Notes under the pieces: model-generated
Told to the model about the DNA's origin: nothing
The model's input: only the letters and a program-made list of their open reading frames with translations
Database searches by the model: none
Shown here: piece by piece, positions 1 to 51,141 of the stretch
Position numbering within the stretch: the stretch's first letter is position 1
Layout: the number at the start of each line of letters is the position of its first letter
Translations under genes and position numbers: made by a program
NCBI GenBank assembly: GCA_016933175.1
Contig: JAFGBK010000116.1
Span: 53,571 to 117,570 of the forward strand
Length of the DNA stretch: 64,000 bases
DNA from: Candidatus Krumholzibacteriota bacterium
Lineage (GTDB): Bacteria > Krumholzibacteriota > Krumholzibacteriia > JACNKJ01
Direction of reading: 5' to 3'

Positions 1-1668
1 CGCCTCGTGCAGGTCCGCCGGCAGGTGCCGGGATTCGATGGCGTCCACGGCCTCGCGGTGCCGGGCGATCACGCCCAGCATGGGTTCGCGGTTGCGGTCG
101 TACTCGGCGAAGGGCTCCTTGACGGCGGCGATCTCGGCGCTGGCGGCGTAGGCCTCGCCGCCCATGATGGCGGTGAGCGCCGCTGCGTAGGCGCGGCCCG
201 CGTCGCTGTCGTAGGGCAACCCCTCGGACATGACCAGGCTGCCGAGGTTGGCGTAGCCCAGGCCCAGGGGCCGGAAGCGGTGGCTGTTGACGGCGATGGG
301 CTCCACGGGGTAGCTGGCCCGGTCGACGATGATCTCCTGGGCGATGACGAAGAGCCGCACGGCCTGCCGGAAACGCGCCACGTCGAAGTCCCCGCCCGGC
401 CGGCGGAACTTCATGAGGTTCAGGCTGGCCAGGTTGCAGGCCGAGTCGTCGAGGAACATGTACTCGCTGCAGGGGTTGCTCGCGTTGATCCGCCCCGCTT
501 TGGGGCAGGTGTGCCAGCGGTTGATGGTGTCATCGTACTGCACGCCGGGATCGCCGCAGATGTGGGTGCCCTCGGCGATGAGGCGCAGCAGCTCGCGGGC
601 CCGGTGCCGGCCGATGACATCGCCGGTGGTGATGGCGTAGGTCTCCTGGTAGCCGTCCTTCTCCACGGCCCGGAAGAAGCTGTCGGTGCAGCGCACGGAG
701 AGATTGGAGTTCTGGAACATCACCGAGCCGTAGGCGTCGCCGTTGTAGGAGCCGTCATAGCCGGCCTCGATGAGGGCCCAGGCCTTCTCCTCCTCGTTCC
801 GCTTGGCGCTGATGAACTCCTTCACGTCGGGATGGGTGATCTTGAGGCTCTGCATCTTGGCCGCGCGGCGCGTCTTGCCGCCCGACTTCACGACGGCCGC
901 GATCTGGTCGTAGACCCGCATGAAGGACAGGGGGCCGCTGGGCTTGCCGCCCCCCGCCAGCAGCTCCTGCGAGCTGCGCAGGGTCGATAGGTCGGTGCCC
1001 GTGCCCGAGCCGAACTTGAAGAGCATGGCCTCGCTGGTGGCGAGGCGCATGATGTCCTCCATGTTGTCCGCAACAGACTGGATGAAGCAGGCCGAACACT
1101 GGGGATGCTTGTAGTTGGACTCGACGCGCAGCGCGGTGCCGGTTTCGGGATCGTAGCGGAAGCCGCCGGCGCTCCCCTCGATGCCACTGACGTGGTAGAG
1201 GCCGAGATTGAACCAGACGGGGCTGTTGAAGGCGCCGTACTGGTTGAGGGTCAGGTGGACCATCTCGTGGTAGAAGTTCTCGGCGTCCTCGGCGCTCGCG
1301 AAGTAGCCGTCCTCGCGCCCCCAGTCGGCGAGGGTGCGGGCCACGCGGTGCACCAGCTGGCGCACGGAGTACTCGCGCTCGGGCTTGCCTAGCTCGCCGA
1401 AGAAGTACTTGGCGCCGACGACATTGGTGGCCAGCATGGACCAGTCCGCCGGCACCTCGACGTCGTCCTGCTCGAAGACGACGCGGCCCTCCTCGTCGGT
1501 GATGCGGGCCGAGCGGCGCTCCCAGCGGACCTCGTCGAAGGGATGTACGCCCGCCCGGGAAAAGTGCCGGGTGATGCGGAGCCGTCCCCGCCGCGGGGCG
1601 GGAGCGGGCTCGTCAGCCCCGGCGCGGCCGACCGACGCGGGAACGGTGCTGCTGCTGGTGGGCTCCAT
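1..1668 (-). CDS. nrdJ: Vitamin B12-dependent (class II) ribonucleotide reductase, N-terminal part; runs off the left edge
   Basis: Minus-strand translation MEPTSSSTVPASVGR...FGELGKPEREYSVRQLVHRVARTLADWG...NSPVWFNLG...PQCSACFIQSV...KFGSGTGTDLSTLRSS...NPCSEYMFLDDSACNLASLNL is class II RNR. AGGAG Shine-Dalgarno precedes ATG at 1668; an in-frame alternative ATG lies at 1731. Confidence 0.93.
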   Translation of the reverse strand, partial: MEPTSSSTVPASVGRAGADEPAPAPRRGRLRITRHFSRAGVHPFDEVRWERRSARITDEEGRVVFEQDDVEVPADWSMLATNVVGAKYFFGELGKPEREYSVRQLVHRVARTLADWGREDGYFASAEDAENFYHEMVHLTLNQYGAFNSPVWFNLGLYHVSGIEGSAGGFRYDPETGTALRVESNYKHPQCSACFIQSVADNMEDIMRLATSEAMLFKFGSGTGTDLSTLRSSQELLAGGGKPSGPLSFMRVYDQIAAVVKSGGKTRRAAKMQSLKITHPDVKEFISAKRNEEEKAWALIEAGYDGSYNGDAYGSVMFQNSNLSVRCTDSFFRAVEKDGYQETYAITTGDVIGRHRARELLRLIAEGTHICGDPGVQYDDTINRWHTCPKAGRINASNPCSEYMFLDDSACNLASLNLMKFRRPGGDFDVARFRQAVRLFVIAQEIIVDRASYPVEPIAVNSHRFRPLGLGYANLGSLVMSEGLPYDSDAGRAYAAALTAIMGGEAYAASAEIAAVKEPFAEYDRNREPMLGVIARHREAVDAIESRHLPADLHEA

Positions 1669-4238: not shown

Positions 4239-8756
<4,518 letters not shown>

Positions 8757-11057: not shown

Positions 11058-12184
11058 GCCGCCTTCGCCTCCTCGTAGAGCTTGCGCTTCGCGCCGAAGA
11101 CCTGGGGCTTCGTGTAGCGGTCGATGAGCGGCGTGGCCGCGTTCATCAGCAGGATGGCGAAGCTGACCCCCTCCGGGTAGCCGCCCCACAGGCGGATGAT
11201 GACGGTGATCAGCCCGCAGCCCACCGCGAAGATGAACATGCCCCGGCGCGTGACGGGGCTGGTGACCATGTCCGTGGCCATGAAGAAGGCGCCCAGGAAC
11301 AGACCGCCGCTGAAGGTGTGGTAGAGCGGGTTGGCGTAGCGCTCGGGATCACCGAGCCAGGCGGCGCCCGTGAAGAGGAAGACCGTCGCGATGAAGCCCA
11401 CCGGCACCTGCCACTTGATGTGCCCCTTGCGCAGCAGGAACAGGCCGCCCAGCAGCAGGGCGATGACGCTCACCTCGCCCAGGCAGCCGCCGCGCATGCC
11501 CACGAGCAGCTTCCAGACGGGGAAATCCGCGCCGGCCATGGCCTGCGGCACCGTCTGCCCCACGCTGAGCGCCTCGCGGATCGCGCCCAGGGGCGTCGCG
11601 GCCGTGGTGGCGTCCACGGTCAGGGGGCCGCCCTGGGCCGGCCAGGTGGTCATCTGCACGGGGAAGGAGACGAGCAGGACCACGCGCGCCACCAGGGCCG
11701 GGTTGAAGGGGTTGTAGCCCAGACCCCCGTAGATCTGCTTGCCGAGGACGATGGCCGCCAGGCAGCCCACCACCACCAGCCACCAGGGGCTGCCCGCCGG
11801 CAGGTTCATGGCCAGCAGCAGGCCGGTGACCACGGCGCTCCAGTCTCCCAGGGTGCCGGGTCGGCCCAGCATCCTCCGGAAGGCCCACTCGAACAGCAGG
11901 CAGCCGGCCACGGCGATCGCGTAGACCTGCAGCGCCGCCAGCCCGAAGAACCAAAGCCCCACGAGGATGCCCGGCACCAGGGCCCAGACCACGCTGCGCA
12001 TGATGCGCGGCACGTCCTGGTCCCGGTGCACGTGGGGCGACGTGCTGACGACCAGGCGCGGCGCCCGGGGCGGCTCGGCCTTGTCCGGCGGCGCCGGCTT
12101 CGCGGGCGGGGGCGCCGGCGGATCGCCGCCGGCAGCGGCGACCTCCGGCGGCGACGCGCCCGTCTTGTCCTGTTCCATGCTCAT
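11054..12184 (-). CDS. rnfD: Electron transport complex subunit D
   Basis: RLVVSTSPHVHRDQDVPRIMRSVVWALVPGI..., ATTAATPLG flavin-site region, GRRGMFIFAVGCGLITVIIRLWGGYPEGVSFAILLMNAATPLID. Confidence 0.93.
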   Translation of the reverse strand: MSMEQDKTGASPPEVAAAGGDPPAPPPAKPAPPDKAEPPRAPRLVVSTSPHVHRDQDVPRIMRSVVWALVPGILVGLWFFGLAALQVYAIAVAGCLLFEWAFRRMLGRPGTLGDWSAVVTGLLLAMNLPAGSPWWLVVVGCLAAIVLGKQIYGGLGYNPFNPALVARVVLLVSFPVQMTTWPAQGGPLTVDATTAATPLGAIREALSVGQTVPQAMAGADFPVWKLLVGMRGGCLGEVSVIALLLGGLFLLRKGHIKWQVPVGFIATVFLFTGAAWLGDPERYANPLYHTFSGGLFLGAFFMATDMVTSPVTRRGMFIFAVGCGLITVIIRLWGGYPEGVSFAILLMNAATPLIDRYTKPQVFGAKRKLYEEAKAA

Positions 12185-12218
12185 CGATCGACTCTCCCTT
12201 GCGCCTTGCGGCGCGGCC

Positions 12219-13544
12219 CTAGGCCGCGCCCTGCTGGCGCATCTTCTGGATGCGGCGCAACTCCGCCTTCCCCCGCTTGATGAGCTGCACGAGGGGCCGG
12301 TAGGCCGGACAGCAGAACGCGCAGCTGCCGCACTCGATGCAGTCGGCGACGTTGAAGTCCTCCAGATCCTCCCAGCGATCGCGCTCGCACAGGACGCCCA
12401 GGGTGCTGGGCAGAAGGCCCATCGGGCAGGCGTCCACGCAGGCGCCGCAGCGGATGCAGGCGTCGGCCAGGTACTGCACCACCTCGGCGTCGGGCAGGCA
12501 CAGGACGCCGCTGGTGCCCTTGATGATGGGCACGTCGAGGCTGAACTGCGCGATGCCCATCATGGGTCCGCCGTAGACGACCTTGGCCACGTCCTCGGTG
12601 AGCCCGCCGCAGAAGGCGAGCACGTCGCCCAGGGGCGTGCCCACGCGCAGGCGCAGGTTCTTGGGCTGGCGGATGGCGGCGCCCGTCACCGTGGTGACGC
12701 GCTGGATCAGGGGCCAGCCCTTCGCGATGGCCTCGTAGGCGGCCACGGCCGTGCCGACGTTCTGCACGAGGCAGCCCACGTCCATGGGCAGGCCGCCGGC
12801 GGGCACGGTGCGCCCCGTCAGCGCGTAGATGAGCTGCTTCTCCGAGCCCTGGGGATACTTGACCTCGAGCAGCGCGAAGGCGACGTCCAGGTCCGGCGGA
12901 CAGGCGGCCTTCAGCGCGTCCAGGGCGTCGGCCTTGTTGGCCTCGACGCCCACGTAGGCCTTGGTCACGCCGAGGACCTTCATGAACAGGCCGACGCCCT
13001 CCATGACCTCGCGCGGTTGCTCGAGCATGACGCGGTGGTCGCTGGTCAGGTAGGGCTCGCACTCGGCGCCGTTGAGGATGAAGGTGCCGATGGGCTTGTC
13101 CTTGGGCGGGCTCAGCTTGACGTGGGTGGGGAAGGTGGCGCCGCCCATGCCCACGAGCCCCGCGTCGCGCAGGGCGTCGCGCAGGGCCGCGGGGTCCATC
13201 TCGCGCCAGGCGCCCCGGGGCTGGACGCCCTCCCACCAGGCGTCCTCGCCGTCGGCCTCGATCTCCACGGCGGTCATCTCCAGGCCCAGGGGATGGGGCA
13301 GCTCCTTGACGGCCGTGACCTTGCCGCTGGTGGGCGCGTGCACGGCCACGGAGACGAAGCCGCCCGGCTCGCTGAGCGGCTGGCCGCGGCCCACCCGGTC
13401 GCCCTTGGCGACGACGGGCTTGCCCGGCGCGCCCAGGTGCTGGGCCAGGGGCACCACGTAGCGCGCGCCCAGGGGCATCTCCTCCACCGGCAAGGCGGCC
13501 GTGCCCTTGTTGTACTGGGGATGGATGCCACCCTTGAACTTCAT
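12219..13544 (-). CDS. rnfC: Electron transport complex subunit C
   Basis: KFKGGIHPQYNKGTAA..., CIRCGACVDACPMGLLP and CIECGSCAFCCPAYRPLVQ ferredoxin motifs. Confidence 0.95.
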   Translation of the reverse strand: MKFKGGIHPQYNKGTAALPVEEMPLGARYVVPLAQHLGAPGKPVVAKGDRVGRGQPLSEPGGFVSVAVHAPTSGKVTAVKELPHPLGLEMTAVEIEADGEDAWWEGVQPRGAWREMDPAALRDALRDAGLVGMGGATFPTHVKLSPPKDKPIGTFILNGAECEPYLTSDHRVMLEQPREVMEGVGLFMKVLGVTKAYVGVEANKADALDALKAACPPDLDVAFALLEVKYPQGSEKQLIYALTGRTVPAGGLPMDVGCLVQNVGTAVAAYEAIAKGWPLIQRVTTVTGAAIRQPKNLRLRVGTPLGDVLAFCGGLTEDVAKVVYGGPMMGIAQFSLDVPIIKGTSGVLCLPDAEVVQYLADACIRCGACVDACPMGLLPSTLGVLCERDRWEDLEDFNVADCIECGSCAFCCPAYRPLVQLIKRGKAELRRIQKMRQQGAA

Positions 13545-33168: not shown

Positions 33169-33465
33169 CTAGTCGCGCGGGAACGCCCGGATGTCGGGCT
33201 GGAACTCGTTGGTGCGCAGGTTATAGCCAACCATCCGCACGGTTCCCGCTTCATCCTGGAACCAGAGCTGGAAGAGGTGGGCGAAGTCCGCGCTGTTGCT
33301 CACGGCGATCAGATCCCCCCACTCGGCGGGAATGGAATCGGGGCTGGGCATCTCCATGACCGCGATGTCGCCCTCCGTCGGCTCGGGGCGATGTTCGATC
33401 TTGGCGCAGCCCAGCGCCAGCAGCAGGGTGACCAGGGCGAGGCAGGTTCCCAGACGAACCAGCAT
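33169..33465 (-). CDS. Small lipoprotein
   Basis: MLVRLGTCLALVTLLLALGC lipobox; AAAGGAGGATCG before ATG. Confidence 0.65.
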   Translation of the reverse strand: MLVRLGTCLALVTLLLALGCAKIEHRPEPTEGDIAVMEMPSPDSIPAEWGDLIAVSNSADFAHLFQLWFQDEAGTVRMVGYNLRTNEFQPDIRAFPRD

Positions 33466-33757
33466 CGATCCTCCTTTCAGGCGCCGCCAGGCGCGGCGCG
33501 AGCCATCCTTCATCCGGGCACGGACAGCCTCTCTCCCCCGGCGCGAGCGCGGGACGCCCGAGACTGTCGCAAAGATGAGAGCCCCCGGAACTGGGATGTG
33601 ACGGTACTGCAAGGAACCGGTGGCGTCAAAGGATTTAGACGGCCCGACTCCTGAATGGCGACAGGCTGCCCACGCGGCGAGCGAGGGAAACCGCGGAGAG
33701 CGGCGCCGCCCGACGCCAGTCAGGCCGCGGCGTGCGGCGGCACCGTCTCCGACGATG

Positions 33758-35200
33758 TCACTTCAGCAGCACCAGGCGGCAGGCGGCGGCCCGGCCGCCC
33801 GCAGCGACGCGCGCCTGGTAGACCCCCGCGGGCAAAGATTGGCCGTTCGCGCCCCGACCCGACCAGGAGGCGCCGCCGGCGCCGCCCTGGGCGCCCAGGT
33901 CGCGCCGGGCGACCCGTCGGCCGCGGGCGTCGAAGATGTCCAGGCGGGCGGGGCCGGCCGGCAGGCCCTCCCAGGCGAGGATCGTGCGCGGATTGAAGGG
34001 ATTGGGCGAGGCCGACAGGCGGGCGGCGAGCGCGGCAGGCGGGGCTGGCGCGGCCGTGGGGCCCGCCGGCACGTCGAGGTCGCAGGGCGGCAGGCCCAGG
34101 GAGACAGGCCCGGCCAGGGGCGCTCCCGTGGCCGCGTCGAGGACGCGTACGCCGGAGGCGCCGAGTGTCTGGTCGGCCAGGTAGAGGTCGCCGGAGGCGT
34201 CCACCTCGACGTCCGTGTAGACGTAGCCCGATCCCGCCAGGACGGTGCTCGCGCCGCCGCCCGTGGACGGATCGAAGCGCACGAGGGCCGTGTTGAAGCC
34301 CGCGTCGCTGACGACGGCGTAGGCCGTGTGGGCGTCGACCAGGGCGACGGCGTTGACGTCGCCGCCCAGGGCGGCCTCGGTGACGACCGGGCCCAGGCTG
34401 GCCATGGCCAGGGGATCCACGCGCTCCAGGCCCCCGTCGGCCAGGCCGTAGATGCCGGCGCAGCAGGCATAGACGAGGCCGTCATCGCCCAGGGTCAGCT
34501 CCCAGGCCGGATTGGCGCACTGGAGCGGGACGGCCTGGACGCCGGGCTGCGCCGGGTTGGCATCCACGAGCTGGTCCGTGGCCGTGTCGATGACGGCCAG
34601 GTAGCTGTCCCCCACCGGCAGCCAGTAGTAGTCGCGGTCCAGGCGCTGGATGGCCACCAGCAGGCGTTCGCCGGCCAGGACCGCCTGGCCGACCTCGCAG
34701 GACCCGTCGGCGTCGGCCCAGGCCGACAGGTCCACCACACCCAGCTCGCCGCCCGTCCCCGGATCGACGACGAGCACGTCGTCGCGCTCCTGGCGGGGCA
34801 GGTAGGCCTTGGCGCCGTCGGGCGAGAGGACCAGGCACTGCGGGTTGCTCGAAGTGCCCGCTGAGAACTGGCGCACCGTTTCCCAGTCCTGCGAGGGATC
34901 GACCACCTGGACGTTGTCGGCGCCCAGTCGGTTGACCACGTAGACCAGGCCGCCGTGGCAGGTCAGCACGGCGTCCGCGTGGATGCTGGCCAGGTCGGCA
35001 TGGCCCGTCCACGGCGCGGCGCTGTCCAGGGCGCCCAGCGCGCCCGTGACGTAGTCCGAGCAGGCGACGGCGATGTAGGGCTCCTGGGCGATGGCCGGCG
35101 CGGCGAGCAGGACCGCGAGCAGGGCGGCGACCGCCGCGCGCCGGCGGGACCGCCGCGACGCGGCCGGACGCGGGAGGTGGAGCGGAAGCGTTCGGGGCAT
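33758..35200 (-). CDS. Secreted YncE-like beta-propeller protein with C-terminal FlgD-like (T9SS type A-like) sorting domain; same operon as BtuB-like receptor
   Basis: Signal peptide; repeated VYVVNRLG..VQVVDPSQ../AYLPRQERDDVLVVDPGTG/..YLAVIDTATDQL; C-term SASPNPFNPRTILAWEGLPAGPARLDIFDARGRRVARRDLG...LVLLK. Confidence 0.82.
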   Translation of the reverse strand: MPRTLPLHLPRPAASRRSRRRAAVAALLAVLLAAPAIAQEPYIAVACSDYVTGALGALDSAAPWTGHADLASIHADAVLTCHGGLVYVVNRLGADNVQVVDPSQDWETVRQFSAGTSSNPQCLVLSPDGAKAYLPRQERDDVLVVDPGTGGELGVVDLSAWADADGSCEVGQAVLAGERLLVAIQRLDRDYYWLPVGDSYLAVIDTATDQLVDANPAQPGVQAVPLQCANPAWELTLGDDGLVYACCAGIYGLADGGLERVDPLAMASLGPVVTEAALGGDVNAVALVDAHTAYAVVSDAGFNTALVRFDPSTGGGASTVLAGSGYVYTDVEVDASGDLYLADQTLGASGVRVLDAATGAPLAGPVSLGLPPCDLDVPAGPTAAPAPPAALAARLSASPNPFNPRTILAWEGLPAGPARLDIFDARGRRVARRDLGAQGGAGGASWSGRGANGQSLPAGVYQARVAAGGRAAACRLVLLK

Positions 35201-35211
35201 GGTCCGTCCTT

Positions 35212-37326
35212 TCATGGCGCGAGGCCGGCGCGGCCCTCCCACTCGAGGGTCAGGAGCCAGGTGCGGCCGGGAAGGGGATAGCCGAGCATGTCCTCGACGC
35301 GGGCGCCGTCGAGGTTGATGCCCTCGAGGGTCAGGCGCAGCCCGCGGGGCAGGCGGCGGCCGAGGCCGGCGCTCCAGACGCGGGCCGCGGGCAGGGAGCG
35401 GTCGGGATCGTTGTAGCGGTCAGTGTAGACGCGGCTTCGCCAGTCCACCTCGGCGAAGGCCTCCCAGGGCCCGCGCGCCGCGCCCAGGCGGGCGAACAGG
35501 CGCGCCGGGCTGGCGTAGGGCAGGCACTTGCCGTCGTAGGGATCCAGGCCGCTTCGATCGCGGGCCGCCTGGTCCGTGCGGGCCAGGCTCAGGGTGGCGC
35601 CCCGCCAGGCCAGGCGCAGGTCGAGCTCGCGGCCCGTGACGCGGCTGGCGCTGATATTGAGGGCGCGCACGGCGTACTGGCTGTTGCGCGTGAAGAGGAT
35701 CTGGTCCTCGCGGTCGCGGCGGAACCAGGTGGCCGCCAGGTCGGCTGTGAGGCCGCCGCGGTGCCAGGCCAGGGAGAGGCCGGCGTCCGTCTGGACGCCC
35801 GTCTCGGGCGCCAGCTCGGGATTGCCCTTGACGGCCACGTCCTGGCCGAAGAGCTCGAGCAGGGTGGGCGCGCGGTAGCCGTCGCCGGCGTTGGCCAGCA
35901 GGTCCAGGCGGAAGCTCCCCGCCGGGCCCTCGCGCTCCACGGCGCCCAGGCGCAGGCCCGCGCGGCGGAAGCGCTCGCGGGTGCGGTGCTCGGGCTGGGG
36001 CTCGGCGGGCAGCCAGGGCGGACCGGCGGGGCCGAAGTAGTTGTCGCGGATCCTCTCCTCGCCGTAAGCCGCCGCCAGAAAGAGCCGCGCCAGGGCCAGG
36101 CGGGCTTCGGCCTCGGCCCGGTCCAGGCGCCGCCGGCGCTCGTACTCGGGCGGCTTGTCGGGATTGAGCACCTCGGGCAGGAAGCGGTCCCGCCGCGCCT
36201 CGGCGCGCAGGAGCAGGTGCAGGGGAAGCAGGTAGAGATCCGCGTGGCCCTGGAGGCCTCGCGCGCGCAGCCGGTCGCGGGTCTCGTCGCGGGAGAGGGC
36301 GGTGGTCGTCTCCTTCTCGGGATTGAGGAAGCGGGCCGTGCCGTCCTGCAGGTAGCCCTGGAGGCGCAGCCGCAGGCGTCCGGCCAGGACGGGGCTCGTC
36401 CAGGCCAGGCGGCCGTCGTGCCCGCTGCGCAGGGAGCGGGTGTGATAGCTGGGCAGGGTCTCGGTGCCGGGGACGCCGTTCTCGCGGCGCAGGTAGCGGT
36501 AGCTGGCGGCCAGGGCGCCGGGCAGGCCGCCGCCGGGCGCCTCCCAGCGCAGGCGGGCCAGCAGGTCGCCACCGGTGAAGTCGGCGTTTTCGCGCACGCG
36601 CAGCGTATCATCGGCCGTGTTGGAGACGGTGGTGCCGCGGCGGTCCAGGTAGGTGAAGTCGGCCTCGCTGCCGAGCCAGGCGCCCGCCACCGACCAGCGC
36701 AGGCGCCAGGGTCCGCCGCCGGCCAGCGCCGCCGACACGCGCCGCGTGCCGTAGCTGCCCAGGCCCAGGGCGACGCGGTCGGCGCCCGCCTCGCCGGTGA
36801 CCACGTGGACGGCCCCGGCCGGCGCGCCGCCGCCCAGCTCGGCGGGCACTCCGCCGCGGAAGACCTCGACGCGCTCGACGCCGGCCAGGGGCAGCTCGTC
36901 CAGCAGGGCGAGGCCCGTGAAGGGGTGGCGCAGGTCCACGCCGTCGAGGAAGACGGCCACCTCCTGGCCGCCCGAGCCGCGCAGGTGGGCCGTGGAGAAG
37001 GCGCCCAGGCCGCCCTGCCGGCGGACCTCCAGGCCGGGCAGCTCGCGCAGGAGCGAGGCCACGGTGGCCTGGCGGTGCGGGCTCGCGGCGGGAAAGACGA
37101 CGCTGGTGGCCAGGCTCTCGCGCTCGCGCAGGGCGTGGCGCACGACGGGATCGCCCATCACCAGGATGGGCGGCAGGACGTAGACGCTGTCGACCGCCGA
37201 CCAGACGGCCGGCGCGAGGGCGGCGCTGTCGGGCGGCGCCTCAGCGGCGGCGACCCCGGCGAGGCACAGCAGCAGCGCGCATACCGGCAGCGGGGCCGGG
37301 CGCGACGTGGCGGGCGTTGATCTCAT
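35212..37326 (-). CDS. TonB-dependent outer-membrane receptor, BtuB-like (cobalamin uptake)
   Basis: Plug domain (VASLLRELPGLEVRRQGGLGAFSTAHLRGSGGQEVAVFLDGVDL..VERVEVFRGGVPAELGGGAPAGAVHVVTG), beta-barrel, terminal aromatic region; cobalamin riboswitch upstream. Confidence 0.92.
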   Translation of the reverse strand: MRSTPATSRPAPLPVCALLLCLAGVAAAEAPPDSAALAPAVWSAVDSVYVLPPILVMGDPVVRHALRERESLATSVVFPAASPHRQATVASLLRELPGLEVRRQGGLGAFSTAHLRGSGGQEVAVFLDGVDLRHPFTGLALLDELPLAGVERVEVFRGGVPAELGGGAPAGAVHVVTGEAGADRVALGLGSYGTRRVSAALAGGGPWRLRWSVAGAWLGSEADFTYLDRRGTTVSNTADDTLRVRENADFTGGDLLARLRWEAPGGGLPGALAASYRYLRRENGVPGTETLPSYHTRSLRSGHDGRLAWTSPVLAGRLRLRLQGYLQDGTARFLNPEKETTTALSRDETRDRLRARGLQGHADLYLLPLHLLLRAEARRDRFLPEVLNPDKPPEYERRRRLDRAEAEARLALARLFLAAAYGEERIRDNYFGPAGPPWLPAEPQPEHRTRERFRRAGLRLGAVEREGPAGSFRLDLLANAGDGYRAPTLLELFGQDVAVKGNPELAPETGVQTDAGLSLAWHRGGLTADLAATWFRRDREDQILFTRNSQYAVRALNISASRVTGRELDLRLAWRGATLSLARTDQAARDRSGLDPYDGKCLPYASPARLFARLGAARGPWEAFAEVDWRSRVYTDRYNDPDRSLPAARVWSAGLGRRLPRGLRLTLEGINLDGARVEDMLGYPLPGRTWLLTLEWEGRAGLAP

Positions 37327-37387
37327 GATGACGCGCGGGCGGGAACAAGCCCCACCCCCTCCCTTCCTCGAGGAGAGTCGGAGCGAA

Positions 37388-37567
37388 AGGTCGGGGCAGG
37401 TCTCCTGACTTACGGGCTTCTCTTGACCGCGCGCCTTCCCGGATCGCATCCAGTGGCGTGAGTGGCGGTCACCCGATCACAGTGGCGGGACCGTGGCGGA
37501 TTCTCACCGCGCTTCCCTATTCTACCCTCCGGCGGACGCCGTCGGGTCACCTCCGGCCTTCGTGACG
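37388..37567 (-). ncRNA. Cobalamin (B12) riboswitch
   Basis: Minus strand GGGAAGCGCGGTGAGAATCCGCCACGGTCCCGCCACTGTGATCGGG...GCCACTGG...CGGGAAGGCGCGCGGTCAAGAGAAGCCCGTAAGTCAGGAGACCTGCC; last part is the B12 box. Confidence 0.96.
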
Positions 37568-37770
37568 CGCAGCAGTGTAGCGCGGACCGCCGGATCCGGC
37601 AAGCCGGATTCCGCATCGCGTCGGAGCGCGGCGAAATCCCTGACTCCGGCCAAGCCGGGACTTCAAATCGCCGAAGTTCTGTTGTAGAGTGAGGCGCCCC
37701 CGTCGCCCGCCGGCGCCGGGGATATTACCTTGTACCGGCAACCACAGATCCAATCCTCGCGGGGTGCAAG

Positions 37771-38634
37771 TTGGGCTACCGGATCCTGAAGAAGCGGGTC
37801 CTCGTCGCGGACCCGAAGACCGTCTACTTCGAGGTGGACGCGGCGGCGGTGGCCGCCAAGGCCAAGGCCGGCCAGTTCATCATCCTCCGGGTGTCGGAGC
37901 CGGGGGAGCGCATCCCCCTGACCATCGCCCAGGCGCGGCCGGATGACGGCGTCACCACCATCGTCGTGCAGGAGGTGGGCAAGACCACCCACGACCTGTG
38001 CAACCTGGAGGAGGGCCAGGAGATCCTGGACTTCGCCGGCCCCCTGGGCCAGCCGACCCACATCGAGAAGCGCGGCACGGTCTGCTGCGTGGGCGGGGGC
38101 ATCGGCAACGCGGTGGTCTGGCCCCAGGCCAAGGCCTTCCACGAGGCGGGCAACAAGGTGATCTCCATCATCGGCGCGCGGACGAAGGGCCTGCTGATCC
38201 TCGAGGAGGAGATCCGGGCCGCCAGCGACGAGGTCATCGTCACCACGGACGACGGCTCCTATGGCCGCAAGGGGCTGGTCACCGACGCGCTCAAGGAGGT
38301 CTGCGAGCGCGAGACGGTCGACGAGTGCATCACCATCGGGCCGGTGATCATGATGAAGTTCGTGGCCGCCACCACGAAGCCCTTCCAGGTGCCCACACAG
38401 GTGAGTCTGAATCCGATCATGGTGGACGGCACGGGCATGTGCGGCGCCTGCCGCGTGACCGTCGGCGGGCAGACCAAGTTCGCCTGCGTGGACGGCCCCG
38501 AGTTCGACGGCCACCAGGTGGACTTCGACGAGCTGATGAAGCGCCTCGCCTACTACCGCGACCTCGAGAAGATCAGCTACGACCGGGCGCTGGAGCGCGA
38601 GTGCCGCTGTGGCAAGTGCGAGGGGGGTGAGTGA
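37771..38634 (+). CDS. Sulfide/dihydroorotate dehydrogenase-type FAD/NAD-binding protein; NfnA-like subunit (TTG start)
   Basis: VTTIVVQEVGKTTHDLCNLEEGQEILDFAGPLGQPTHIEKRGTVCCVGGGIG; MCGACRVTVGGQTKFACVDGPEFDGH [2Fe-2S] site. Confidence 0.9.
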   Translation: MGYRILKKRVLVADPKTVYFEVDAAAVAAKAKAGQFIILRVSEPGERIPLTIAQARPDDGVTTIVVQEVGKTTHDLCNLEEGQEILDFAGPLGQPTHIEKRGTVCCVGGGIGNAVVWPQAKAFHEAGNKVISIIGARTKGLLILEEEIRAASDEVIVTTDDGSYGRKGLVTDALKEVCERETVDECITIGPVIMMKFVAATTKPFQVPTQVSLNPIMVDGTGMCGACRVTVGGQTKFACVDGPEFDGHQVDFDELMKRLAYYRDLEKISYDRALERECRCGKCEGGE

Positions 38635-47458: not shown

Positions 47459-48433
47459 TCAATACCAGGTACGGACCATGCGCAGGCCGGTGGCGCCGTC
47501 GGCCTCGTCGGGAAAGGCGCGGTCGCGGTACCAGCCCGACAGGGCCTCGAAGGGGCCGTCGTGGCTGCCGCCGCGCAGGCCCTTCTCCAGATCGTAGGCG
47601 TTCACGTCCACGGGGTCCACCAGCGGTTCGTAGTCGATCCAGTCGCCGTACCAGTCCTGGACCCACTCGCGCAGGTTGCCGGCCAGGTCGCTCAGGAACA
47701 GGTAGGCGTCGCCCTGCGGCGAGTAGCTGGCCACCGGCAGCGGCCCGGCCTCGCAGGGCGGAGCCGCCGGCGACGAGCGCCCGTTGCAGGTGGCGCAGTC
47801 GGGATTGCGGTCGCCCCAGGAATACTGCCGGTGATCCGGGTAGCGCGCGGCGTACTCCCACTCGGCCTCGGTGGGCAGGCGCCAGCCCATGGCGTCGTAA
47901 GGGTTTCCGCCGGGCCCGCAGACCCACTCCAGGCCCTGGATCACGTAGCTGCGCGGCAGGCCTTCGGCCTGATTGCGCCAGTCGCAGAGGGCCGCCGCCC
48001 CGTACCAGGTGACGCGGCGCAGCGGCAGGCCCGGATCCGCGCCGCCTCGCAGGGCGAGGCTGTCGCCCGCCGCGTCGTAGAGCAGCTCCTCGTGGCCCTG
48101 CAGGGCCAGCAGGCGGTCCCCCGTCTCGCTGAAGTAGAGCACGTCGCCCACCAGCGCCGCCTCGCCGTGGCGCCGGCCCGCGTTGAAGAGGGGCAGGGCC
48201 TCGTGCACGGTGAGCTCCGTCTGCGCGATGATGAAGCCGCGGCGCAGGGACACCCGCCGCGTGCCCTCGTAGGGATCGAAGAGCCCCGGCTCCCCCATGC
48301 GGTAGCTGCCCGCCGGCACGTAGCTGAAGCCCGGCGGCGGCGGCTCGACGCCGCCGTCGTTGTCCCAGAAGCAGCCGGACGCCAGCAGCAACGGCAGTGT
48401 CAAGAGCAGGATTCGGCGCGCGGGAACGATCAT
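47459..48433 (-). CDS. Formylglycine-generating-enzyme-like (SUMF1 domain) lipoprotein
   Basis: Lipobox LLASGC; GWRLPTEAEWEYAARYPDHRQYSWGD..LSDLAGNLREWVQDWYGDW..GLRGGSHDG..TGLRMVRTWY. Confidence 0.87.
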   Translation of the reverse strand: MIVPARRILLLTLPLLLASGCFWDNDGGVEPPPPGFSYVPAGSYRMGEPGLFDPYEGTRRVSLRRGFIIAQTELTVHEALPLFNAGRRHGEAALVGDVLYFSETGDRLLALQGHEELLYDAAGDSLALRGGADPGLPLRRVTWYGAAALCDWRNQAEGLPRSYVIQGLEWVCGPGGNPYDAMGWRLPTEAEWEYAARYPDHRQYSWGDRNPDCATCNGRSSPAAPPCEAGPLPVASYSPQGDAYLFLSDLAGNLREWVQDWYGDWIDYEPLVDPVDVNAYDLEKGLRGGSHDGPFEALSGWYRDRAFPDEADGATGLRMVRTWY

Positions 48434-48504
48434 GGGACCTCCAGGCTTTCGCGGCGGACGTCATGGGTATAATATCGCCCCTTCACCCCCGTGGGAAGGA
48501 CGCC

Positions 48505-51141
48505 ATGCTGCCTCCCGGCCATCCCTACGAGAAGCTCCTCGAACGCGTCGCCAAGCCCGGACGCTACACGGGCGGCGAGCACCAGGAGGTCCGCAAAGAT
48601 CCCGGCGCGCTGCGCTGCCGCGTGGCCCTGGCCTATCCGGACGTCTACGAGGTGGGGATGAGCCACCTGGGGCTCAAGATCCTCTACAGCCTCGTCAATG
48701 CGCGCGAGGACCTGGCCGCCGAGCGCGTCTACGCCCCCTGGCCCGACATGGAGGCCGAGCTGCGCGGCGCGGGGCTGCCCCTGGTCAGCCTGGAGACGGC
48801 CACGCCGCTCTCGGACTTCGACGTGCTGGGCGTCTCCCTCCAGTACGAGTTGACGGCCACGAACCTGCTCACGTTGCTCGACCTGGGCGGCATTCCCCTG
48901 CGCGCGGCGGACCGCGGCGACGGCGACCCGCTGGTGGCCGCCGGCGGACCCATGGCCTTCGAGGCCGAGCCCCTGGCGCCCTTCGTCGACGTCTTCGTCA
49001 TCGGCGACGGCGAGGAGGCCCTGGTGGACCTCATGGATCACTGGGCGCGCCTCGGGGAGCGGGGCCTGCCGCGCGCCGAGCGCCTGCGCCGCCTGGCGGC
49101 CGGCCGCGGCCGCTACGTGCCGTCCCTCTACCGGGCGGCGCCCGACCCGGCCACGGGCCTGCACGTGGTGCTGAAGCCGGCCGACCCCGACCTGCCCTTT
49201 CCCGTCAAGCGCGCGCTGGTGGAGAGCCTGGACGCCTGGCCCTTCCCCACCGACACGCCTGTCGCCGAGAGCCGCGCCGTCTTCGACCGCCACGCCATCG
49301 AGCTGGCCCGCGGCTGCCAGGCGGGCTGCCGCTTCTGCCAGGCGGGGATGATCTACCGACCTCTGCGCGAGCGACCGCCGGCCCAGGTCGCCGGGACGGT
49401 GCTGCGCGGCGTGCGCGAGGCCGGCTACGACGAGGTGAGCCTGAGCAGCCTGTCCACGGCGGACTACTCCGCGCTGCTCCCCCTGGTCGAGCGCCTCATG
49501 CCCGAGCTCGAGGACGAGCGCGTCAGCCTGTCCGTCTCGAGCCTGCGCGCCTACGGCCTCGCCGAGGCTCTGCTGGACGAGATGGCGAAGGTGCGCGCCA
49601 CCAGCCTCACCTTCGCCCCCGAGGCGGGCAGCCAGCGCCTGCGCGACGCCATCAACAAGAACGTCAGCGACGAGCAGCTGATCGAGAGCGCGCGGCGGGC
49701 CTTCCAGCGCGGCTGGAACCACATCAAGCTCTACTTCATGATCGGCCTGCCGGGCGAGACCGGCGCCGACCTGGCCGGCATCATCGACCTGGCCGCCCGC
49801 TGCCGCGACACGGCGCGGGATCTGCCCGGCCGGCGCCGCCCGGCGCGGGTGATCGTCTCGGTGAGCAACTTCGTGCCCAAGCCGCACACGCCCTTCCAGT
49901 GGGCGGCCATGGACCCGCCCGAGCGCCTGCGCGCCAAGCAGTCGCGCCTGCGCCGCCTGGCCCGCGAGCGCGGCCTGGACATCAAGCTGCACGACGCGGC
50001 GGCGAGCCGCCTGGAGGGCATCCTCAGCCGCGGCGACCGCCGCCTGGCCGACGTCATCGAGCTGGCCTGGCGCCGCGGCGCCCGCTTCGACGGCTGGGAT
50101 GACCAGTTCCGCCCCGACATCTGGGAAGGCGCCCTGGCCGACGCGGGCGTGGACCCGGCGCCCATGCTCGGCGCCCTGCCGCTTGACTCGCGCCTGCCCT
50201 GGGAGCACCTGCACCCCGGCGTGACGCGCACCTTCCTGCACCGCGAGTGGGAGCGCGGCCTGGCCGGCCTGACCACGGCGCCCTGCGGCCTGGCGCCGGT
50301 GGATCCCGCGGGCGCGGACGGCGCGCCGGGCGCGGAGGACGTCTGCCACCACTGCGGTCTGGCCTGCGACCTGGAGGAATTGGCCGCGCGGCGGCGGGCC
50401 GCCCATGCCGAGCTGGCGGCCCTGGCGGCGGCGCCCCGCGCGGCGGCGACGGAGCCCCGCCGCTACCGCCTCGTCTACGCGCGCTACGGCCCGGCCAGCA
50501 GCCTGGGCCACCTGGACCTGCTGCGCCTGTGGCCGCGCGTCCTGCGCCGGGCCGGCCTGCGCGTGGCCTACAGCCGGGGCTACCATCCCCACCCGCGCCT
50601 GAGCTTCTCGCCGGCCCTGCCCACGGGGGCCTGGAGCGTGGGCGAGCAGATGGAGGTCGTCCTGCGCGAGGACCTGCCGCCGGCGGACCTGCTCGCCCGC
50701 CTGGCGGGCGCCCTGCCGCCGGGCCTGCGCCTGCTGGAGGCCCACGCCGGCGAGGCGCGCCCCCTGGCGAAACGCCTGGCCGCCCAGCGCGTACTGGTGG
50801 CCTTTGCCGGACCGCCCGGCGGGGACCTGGCGGCGGCCTGCGCGGCGCTGCTGGCCCGCGCCACCATCACGGTCACGCGGGAGCGCAAGCAGGGCGTTCG
50901 CGCCCTGGACGTGCGGCCCACGCTCCTGGCCCTGCGGCCGGCCGCGCCGGAGGACCTGCCGGCGGCGGCGGCGCTGCTGCCGGGGGACGACTGGGCCGGC
51001 GGCCTGCCCGCGCGCGTCCACCTGGAGCTGGCCCTGCAGCGGGCGTCGGTGAAGCCCGCCGAGCTGGCCCTGCTGCTGGGCGGCGAGGCCGGGACTGTCC
51101 GCGTCCTGCGCCTGGGATTCGCGCTGGAGAAGGAGCCATGA
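48505..51141 (+). CDS. TIGR03960-type B12-binding-like radical SAM protein fused to TIGR03936/DUF2344 domain
   Basis: DVYEVGMSHLGLKILYSLVN; ELARGCQAGCRFCQAGMIYRPLRER; C-term YRLVYARYGPASSLGHLDLLRLWPRVLRRAGLRVAYSRGYHPHPRLSFSPALPTG. Confidence 0.9.
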   Translation: MLPPGHPYEKLLERVAKPGRYTGGEHQEVRKDPGALRCRVALAYPDVYEVGMSHLGLKILYSLVNAREDLAAERVYAPWPDMEAELRGAGLPLVSLETATPLSDFDVLGVSLQYELTATNLLTLLDLGGIPLRAADRGDGDPLVAAGGPMAFEAEPLAPFVDVFVIGDGEEALVDLMDHWARLGERGLPRAERLRRLAAGRGRYVPSLYRAAPDPATGLHVVLKPADPDLPFPVKRALVESLDAWPFPTDTPVAESRAVFDRHAIELARGCQAGCRFCQAGMIYRPLRERPPAQVAGTVLRGVREAGYDEVSLSSLSTADYSALLPLVERLMPELEDERVSLSVSSLRAYGLAEALLDEMAKVRATSLTFAPEAGSQRLRDAINKNVSDEQLIESARRAFQRGWNHIKLYFMIGLPGETGADLAGIIDLAARCRDTARDLPGRRRPARVIVSVSNFVPKPHTPFQWAAMDPPERLRAKQSRLRRLARERGLDIKLHDAAASRLEGILSRGDRRLADVIELAWRRGARFDGWDDQFRPDIWEGALADAGVDPAPMLGALPLDSRLPWEHLHPGVTRTFLHREWERGLAGLTTAPCGLAPVDPAGADGAPGAEDVCHHCGLACDLEELAARRRAAHAELAALAAAPRAAATEPRRYRLVYARYGPASSLGHLDLLRLWPRVLRRAGLRVAYSRGYHPHPRLSFSPALPTGAWSVGEQMEVVLREDLPPADLLARLAGALPPGLRLLEAHAGEARPLAKRLAAQRVLVAFAGPPGGDLAAACAALLARATITVTRERKQGVRALDVRPTLLALRPAAPEDLPAAAALLPGDDWAGGLPARVHLELALQRASVKPAELALLLGGEAGTVRVLRLGFALEKEP

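Follow-up and report, generated by a model that had tools for sequence, protein, structure and literature searches.

BtuG, the beta-propeller lipoprotein that partners the TonB-dependent vitamin B12 receptor BtuB in Bacteroides, has been reported only in Bacteroidetes, by BLAST of 313 human gut genomes (PMC6143338), and TonB transporters capped by lipoproteins have been described as seemingly exclusive to that phylum (PMC10404256). BtuG2 has a net charge of -18, which is thought to attract B12, and its residue Trp194 is reported to narrow the B12 pocket (PMC10404256). In a 2016 survey, the type IX secretion system (T9SS) was found in no group but Bacteroidetes (PMC4793230); priority for its occurrence elsewhere is not claimed here. 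The locus considered in this work lies in a 64,000-nucleotide stretch of DNA (the window) from a Candidatus Krumholzibacteriota bacterium, where a cobalamin riboswitch is followed by the genes of a BtuB-like receptor and of a secreted beta-propeller. Sequence comparison and a predicted fold make it very probable that this propeller is a BtuG-like cap for the receptor, exported by T9SS, within a cobamide-uptake module repressed by B12.

A propeller of the BtuG type

When a profile of 31 relatives of the window propeller was compared with all PDB sequences, BtuG structures ranked first. With the profile restricted to the propeller domain, all nine matches under an E-value of 1e-6 were BtuG (8okv, 8p97, 8puj, 8bmy, 8bn0, 8bmx, 8baz, 8bai and 3dsm, with E-values from 6.5e-9 to 4e-7), and no match to any other PDB protein fell under 1e-3. 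The AlphaFold2 model of the window propeller (predicted local distance difference test score 88.4) points in the same direction: its template modelling (TM) scores in Foldseek, normalised to target length, were 0.65-0.76 for BtuG1-3, against 0.63-0.66 for Escherichia coli YncE and 0.62-0.65 for XusB. By E-value, one archaeal S-layer propeller protein outranked the BtuGs, but it superposes poorly. A lipoprotein-type relative from Nitrospirota, modelled separately, had BtuG as each of its first 14 Foldseek matches, with TM up to 0.82, the larger BtuG1 chain excepted. The stretch aligned to BtuG2 includes Trp194, as located by counting alignment positions, and the window propeller domain is strongly acidic, with a net charge of -34. 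As judged by profile and model, the window protein is a propeller of BtuG-type fold with detectable homology to BtuG; the resemblance to BtuG proposed in the first-pass annotation therefore stands, the top matches in sequence and in fold both being BtuG and not a family unrelated to B12. A single-protein scan of genome contigs with the window propeller as query found no relatives. The full alignment of relatives (A3) was too diverse for patterns, and a closer subset (A4) was usable.

Riboswitch, gene order and receptor

The RF00174 model matches positions 37378-37569 at 99.6 bits (cmscan, E-value 1.1e-23; gathering score 31.5), over model positions 1-189, and this is the sole cobalamin riboswitch found across the genome, which is 93% complete. 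On the minus strand the order is riboswitch, receptor, propeller; the receptor gene extends from an ATG at 37326 to a stop at 35212, and the propeller gene starts at 35200. The full B12 riboswitch ahead of a TonB receptor and the 11-bp step to the propeller gene, both read from the letters at first sight, were thus confirmed, and a consensus scan saw no promoter and no terminator anywhere in 33400-37900, so nothing is seen to divide the two genes. Since no terminator was seen, riboswitch control would probably be translational. The stretch from the aptamer to the start codon folds no better than its shuffles (z 0.06), and for this reason no expression platform is claimed.

This arrangement is conserved. 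The class was sampled with 78 genomes from 43 genera, the named relatives being mostly Krumholzibacteriota; a cobalamin riboswitch was found in 68 of the 78, and a propeller orthologue, matching beyond the common tail, in 62. Of the 59 genomes with both, 51 place the propeller downstream of the riboswitch on the same strand, at a distance of 2038-2436 bp, and several of the genomes outside these 51 look like contig breaks. Wherever class loci were read out, the receptor sits between riboswitch and propeller, with small gaps between the two genes (mostly within 60 bp, some overlapping), whose single values are rough because start codons were assigned by rule. Conservation beside a riboswitch-regulated BtuB-like receptor, which the first-pass annotation had left to a survey of relatives, is found here and in other phyla as well. 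Two class loci are arranged differently. In L090 (genome G025), tandem propeller paralogues share one contig (3-1112 and 3694-5178), in a genome that yielded no cobalamin riboswitch. In L104 (G022), the sole riboswitch found (~6913-7510) is far from the propeller and adjoins a stretch read as N, and the receptor ahead of the propeller is broken.

Both the Plug and the TonB barrel domain score over cut-off in the window receptor. Its top NCBIfam match is the TonB-B12/BtuB equivalog TIGR01779, whose curated cut-off of 599.7 bits it does not reach (87.7 bits). As a profile of relatives searched against the PDB, the receptors paired with a propeller match Bacteroides BtuB1 best (172 bits), followed by E. 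coli BtuB (148). Four class genomes have the riboswitch without the propeller (G026, G035, G045 and G047; loci L098, L099, L110 and L100, respectively). Their solo receptors match TIGR01779 at 283-317 bits over almost the full model length, and their best PDB match is E. coli BtuB (212 bits), with Bacteroides BtuB1 at 88, a contrast drawn from four genomes of two genera. In these sequences, receptor type goes with the presence of the cap, which fits the expectation if both proteins dock. The class therefore offers a natural contrast between capped B12 receptors and uncapped BtuB of the E. coli type.

Relatives in other phyla

Among GTDB genomes, a scan yielded 58 propeller loci, with names that include Krumholzibacteriota, Eisenbacteria, Latescibacterota, Gemmatimonadota, Nitrospirota, Thermodesulfobacteriota, Myxococcota, Spirochaetes and Binatota, although single taxon names may be wrong because nearly all of these genomes are metagenome bins. 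A cobalamin riboswitch lies upstream in 38 of the loci searched; most loci without one end at a contig end, the receptor gene of L126 is broken, and a receptor is lacking from four distant loci. Matches in Polyangium and one deltaproteobacterium (L166, L168-L170), for which no adjacent receptor or riboswitch was found, were set aside as distant paralogues.

Several of these propellers stand among genes of cobamide metabolism. Downstream of the L143 propeller come a BtuF-type periplasmic binding protein, a histidine phosphatase, CobU, a CobT-type phosphoribosyltransferase and CobS. The L157 propeller precedes a CobD/CbiB-type protein, an aminotransferase, CobU, a CobT-type protein and CobS, and the L158 propeller precedes CobN. 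The propeller of L147 lies among a FecCD permease, an ATP-binding cassette ATPase, an AP_endonuc_2 protein that is presumably CbiR-like, a receptor, ExbB and TonB. These neighbours (of BtuF, CobU/T/S, CobN and BtuCD type) support a B12 role. The idea of a lineage-specific propeller, put forward in the first reading, has to be given up, since relatives occur in several other phyla and some of them inside cobalamin operons.

A few of these loci have features of their own. In L143 (1155-6578) the riboswitch leads directly to a lipoprotein-type propeller, then to the BtuF-type protein and CobU/T/S, with no receptor in between. In L147 (5911-10087, from a Thermodesulfobacteriota bin) the propeller has a C-terminal extension of 130 residues, with neither lipobox nor T9SS tail, and downstream of it a stand-alone secreted protein of 143 amino acids resembles this extension. 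In L149, a second cobalamin riboswitch lies upstream of a different, YncE-like propeller (11079-12457) that matches PF21783 and PF16819, and which may represent another B12-regulated propeller family.

Alternatively, the window propeller could belong to the general surface proteins of YncE/YVTN or XusB-like kind, bind some other ligand, such as a siderophore, and share the operon without further connection. In favour of this, the seven-bladed fold is versatile, the model is matched by YncE and XusB too, and XusB, of that same fold, passes siderophores to a TonB receptor (PMC13142918). This explanation is nevertheless improbable, as BtuG comes ahead of both proteins in sequence and fold, the linkage to a cobalamin riboswitch is constant within the class as well as outside its phylum, in several others, and the genes alongside include those of CobU/T/S, CobN and BtuF type. 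Moreover, the Pfam models YNCE (PF21783) and DUF5074 (PF16819) have no match in the window protein at an E-value of 1, nor in any of the 31 relatives at 0.01; what the family libraries name in the window protein is its tail only. An identity as YncE or lactonase was considered and dropped, because BtuG outranks both by sequence and fold.

The C-terminal tail and type IX secretion

The first-pass description of the propeller protein, with a signal peptide, no lipobox and an FlgD-like end, was borne out, FlgD_ig matching residues 415-467 at 34.2 bits over a cut-off of 27. Among the 31 relatives, FlgD_ig is matched by 30 and Por_Secre_tail by 20 at an E-value of 0.01. The genome encodes, over cut-off, the T9SS translocon SprA (SprA_N, contig C62) and a PorU sortase adjoining a PorV family gene (contig C70), and dozens of its other proteins align with the PorU model at its C-terminal part, the region of the tail.

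Across other phyla the propellers fall into three main kinds by tag. The first has an FlgD/T9SS tail and no lipobox; the second a dockerin-like tail with DFDGDCVVDFSDFLAFASAFG repeats (L148, L150-L153), in genomes that also have SprA; and the third a lipobox and no tail (Nitrospirota, Myxococcota, Spirochaetes and others). SprA was found in all 18 searched genomes whose propeller has an FlgD/T9SS or dockerin-like tail and in none of 18 other genomes, which include L147 and L162, with neither tail nor clear lipobox, and L173, a fragment; within the class, 66 of 78 genomes have SprA. In the tree, the propeller tag changes at least five times, and the tag agrees with SprA in all 42 scored rows. 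The delivery to the surface by a different route, suggested when the DNA was first read, gains support from the T9SS components encoded in the genome and from the way SprA tracks the tail across phyla.

Several points weigh against the reading of the window protein as a T9SS-exported BtuG-like cap. Its sequence likeness to BtuG is weak and extends mainly over ~110 residues, with ~15% identity in the fold alignment. The lipobox of BtuG is not present in the window protein, nor in its tailed relatives, and because this lipoprotein signal is absent the protein is classed as a BtuG-like variant, not as BtuG. In the window protein, the T9SS sorting model TIGR04183 stays under its cut-off. GldM was not detected in the genome, by a search that is uninformative because it found none in any control genome either. 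The association between SprA and tail has only two strictly independent pairs on supported branches, and is for that reason descriptive and short of significance. Finally, B12 binding by the propeller, its surface location and its complex with the receptor are inferred from sequence and model.

Some of these points would suit a propeller that does not leave the periplasm, where it might buffer B12, its tail being a generic FlgD-like domain: of the tail models, FlgD_ig alone passes its cut-off in the window protein, and GldM went undetected, in a search that was blank in the controls too. Such a location is very unlikely, given that dozens of proteins of the genome share the C-terminal PorU match, that SprA, PorU and PorV are all present, and that the cross-phylum tail is restricted to SprA-bearing genomes while most other propellers have a lipobox. 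T9SS cargo can be either anchored or released. An exported propeller without a lipid anchor could therefore also be released and scavenge B12 in soluble form, in the manner of the haemophore HasA, and not act as a tethered lid, and its strong acidity suits long-range capture. This is likewise unlikely, if less markedly so: in relatives from other phyla, the tether of this protein is a lipobox; a stable complex is suggested by the way receptor type follows the cap; and the genome has PorU, which in Porphyromonas gingivalis cleaves the tail and attaches the cargo to lipopolysaccharide. The T9SS-exported cap remains the preferred reading.

Features of the locus and B12 demand

Table 1. Features of the propeller locus, with positions counted from the first letter of the window
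Feature	Position	Strand	Evidence
Cobalamin riboswitch aptamer, complete (model 1-189)	37378..37569	-	Rfam RF00174
BtuB-like TonB-dependent receptor, 704 aa	35212..37326	-	Plug and TonB_dep_Rec_b-barrel domains
Intergenic gap of 11 bp, receptor to propeller, holding Shine-Dalgarno-like AAAGGACGG	35201..35211	-	Sequence
Secreted BtuG-like beta-propeller with T9SS-type tail, 480 aa	33758..35200	-	
Sec signal peptide region, residues 1-39, without lipobox	35084..35200	-	Sequence; model helix 16-32
Propeller domain, residues 40-386, net charge -34	34043..35083	-	Sequence and model
C-terminal FlgD/T9SS-type sorting domain, residues 394-480	33761..34021	-	FlgD_ig

The window also holds genes that may bear on the B12 need of the organism. 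The B12-dependent ribonucleotide reductase NrdJ noticed at first sight is real, though incomplete here: its gene (minus strand, 53019-54932 of contig C131; 563 bits) runs across the left end of the window, its visible part being window positions 1-1362, and it is the only match to the model in the genome. A radical-SAM protein at 48397-51141, putatively of the B12-binding type named at first sight, has Radical_SAM_N2, Radical_SAM and DUF2344 domains. CobS was not found in the genome by a search that detected it in ten control genomes, and a BtuF-type protein is encoded on contig C109. Because CobS was not found, the organism probably imports complete cobamides, with the proviso that some of the genome may be missing. 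In two other class loci (L106, 876-3379; L107, 1047-3475), a second cobalamin riboswitch lies upstream of proteins that start like ribonucleotide reductases with an ATP cone, and which are perhaps B12-independent reductases repressed by B12.

Proposed mechanism

The model that can be drawn from the observed riboswitch, gene order, homology, predicted fold, conservation and T9SS genes begins with low intracellular B12, under which the riboswitch would permit the joint synthesis of receptor and propeller, B12 thereby acting as repressor. The receptor, by its domains, would reside in the outer membrane and be driven by TonB. The propeller would cross the inner membrane by Sec and then the outer membrane by the T9SS, via its C-terminal tail; the genes of SprA, PorV and PorU are observed, and it is their use in this export that is inferred. 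PorU would probably remove the tail and anchor the propeller at the surface. There, the acidic propeller may capture cobamides as BtuG does and, as a lid seated on the receptor, hand them on for import, after which the BtuF-type protein, whose gene lies elsewhere in the genome, would take them onward.

Comparison with known systems

No report of a BtuG-like cap in these phyla, or of a B12- or vitamin-capture protein with a T9SS tag, was found among open-access papers. What appears to be new, as far as sequences and models indicate, is a BtuBG-type system with an exchangeable export tag, beyond the phylum thought to confine it. The balance tips slightly towards propeller-capped B12 uptake being old and phylum-spanning, with Bacteroides BtuG as one branch and the tag swapped according to which export machine the host has: a lipobox without T9SS, a T9SS or dockerin-like tail with it. 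A BtuG-like cap with its own BtuB-like receptor is in any case present in several other, mostly uncultured phyla, with varied tags. If the propeller binds B12, capping would be a general answer to B12 scarcity, beyond the gut. The tag swap offers a clean comparison, with the cap unchanged and the anchor different, and the T9SS of uncultured phyla gains a concrete candidate for a nutritional cargo.

XusB (a DUF4374 siderophore-binding lipoprotein), the DUF4465 proteins (BtuJ) and BtuH share with the window propeller the part of a surface partner of TonB receptors, in their case in Bacteroides. XusB is a seven-bladed propeller, and DUF4465 spans several phyla (PMC13398666, PMC13142918). XusB, however, matches the fold of the window propeller less well than BtuG does, and DUF4465 is another family, with no such domain matched in the window protein or its 31 relatives. 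With T9SS cargo carrying C-terminal sorting domains, the window protein has in common a beta-sandwich-type tail shared by many proteins of the genome, but FlgD_ig describes this tail better than the standard T9SS models do. The receptor resembles BtuB of Bacteroides (BtuB1, 8blw) and E. coli (1nqe) as a TonB-dependent receptor under a cobalamin riboswitch, BtuB1 being the closest PDB match of the propeller-paired receptors; it differs in lying far under the BtuB equivalog cut-offs, and the E. coli type sits in class members without the propeller. The closest counterpart of the propeller is BtuG (BtuG1-3 of B. thetaiotaomicron; 8bai, 8bmy, 8okv, 8p97, 3dsm), with which it shares a predicted acidic propeller of seven-bladed type, detectable sequence similarity and a gene position next to that of a BtuB-like receptor and behind a cobalamin riboswitch, and from which it differs by that low identity, the missing lipobox, the T9SS-type tail and its occurrence outside Bacteroidota.

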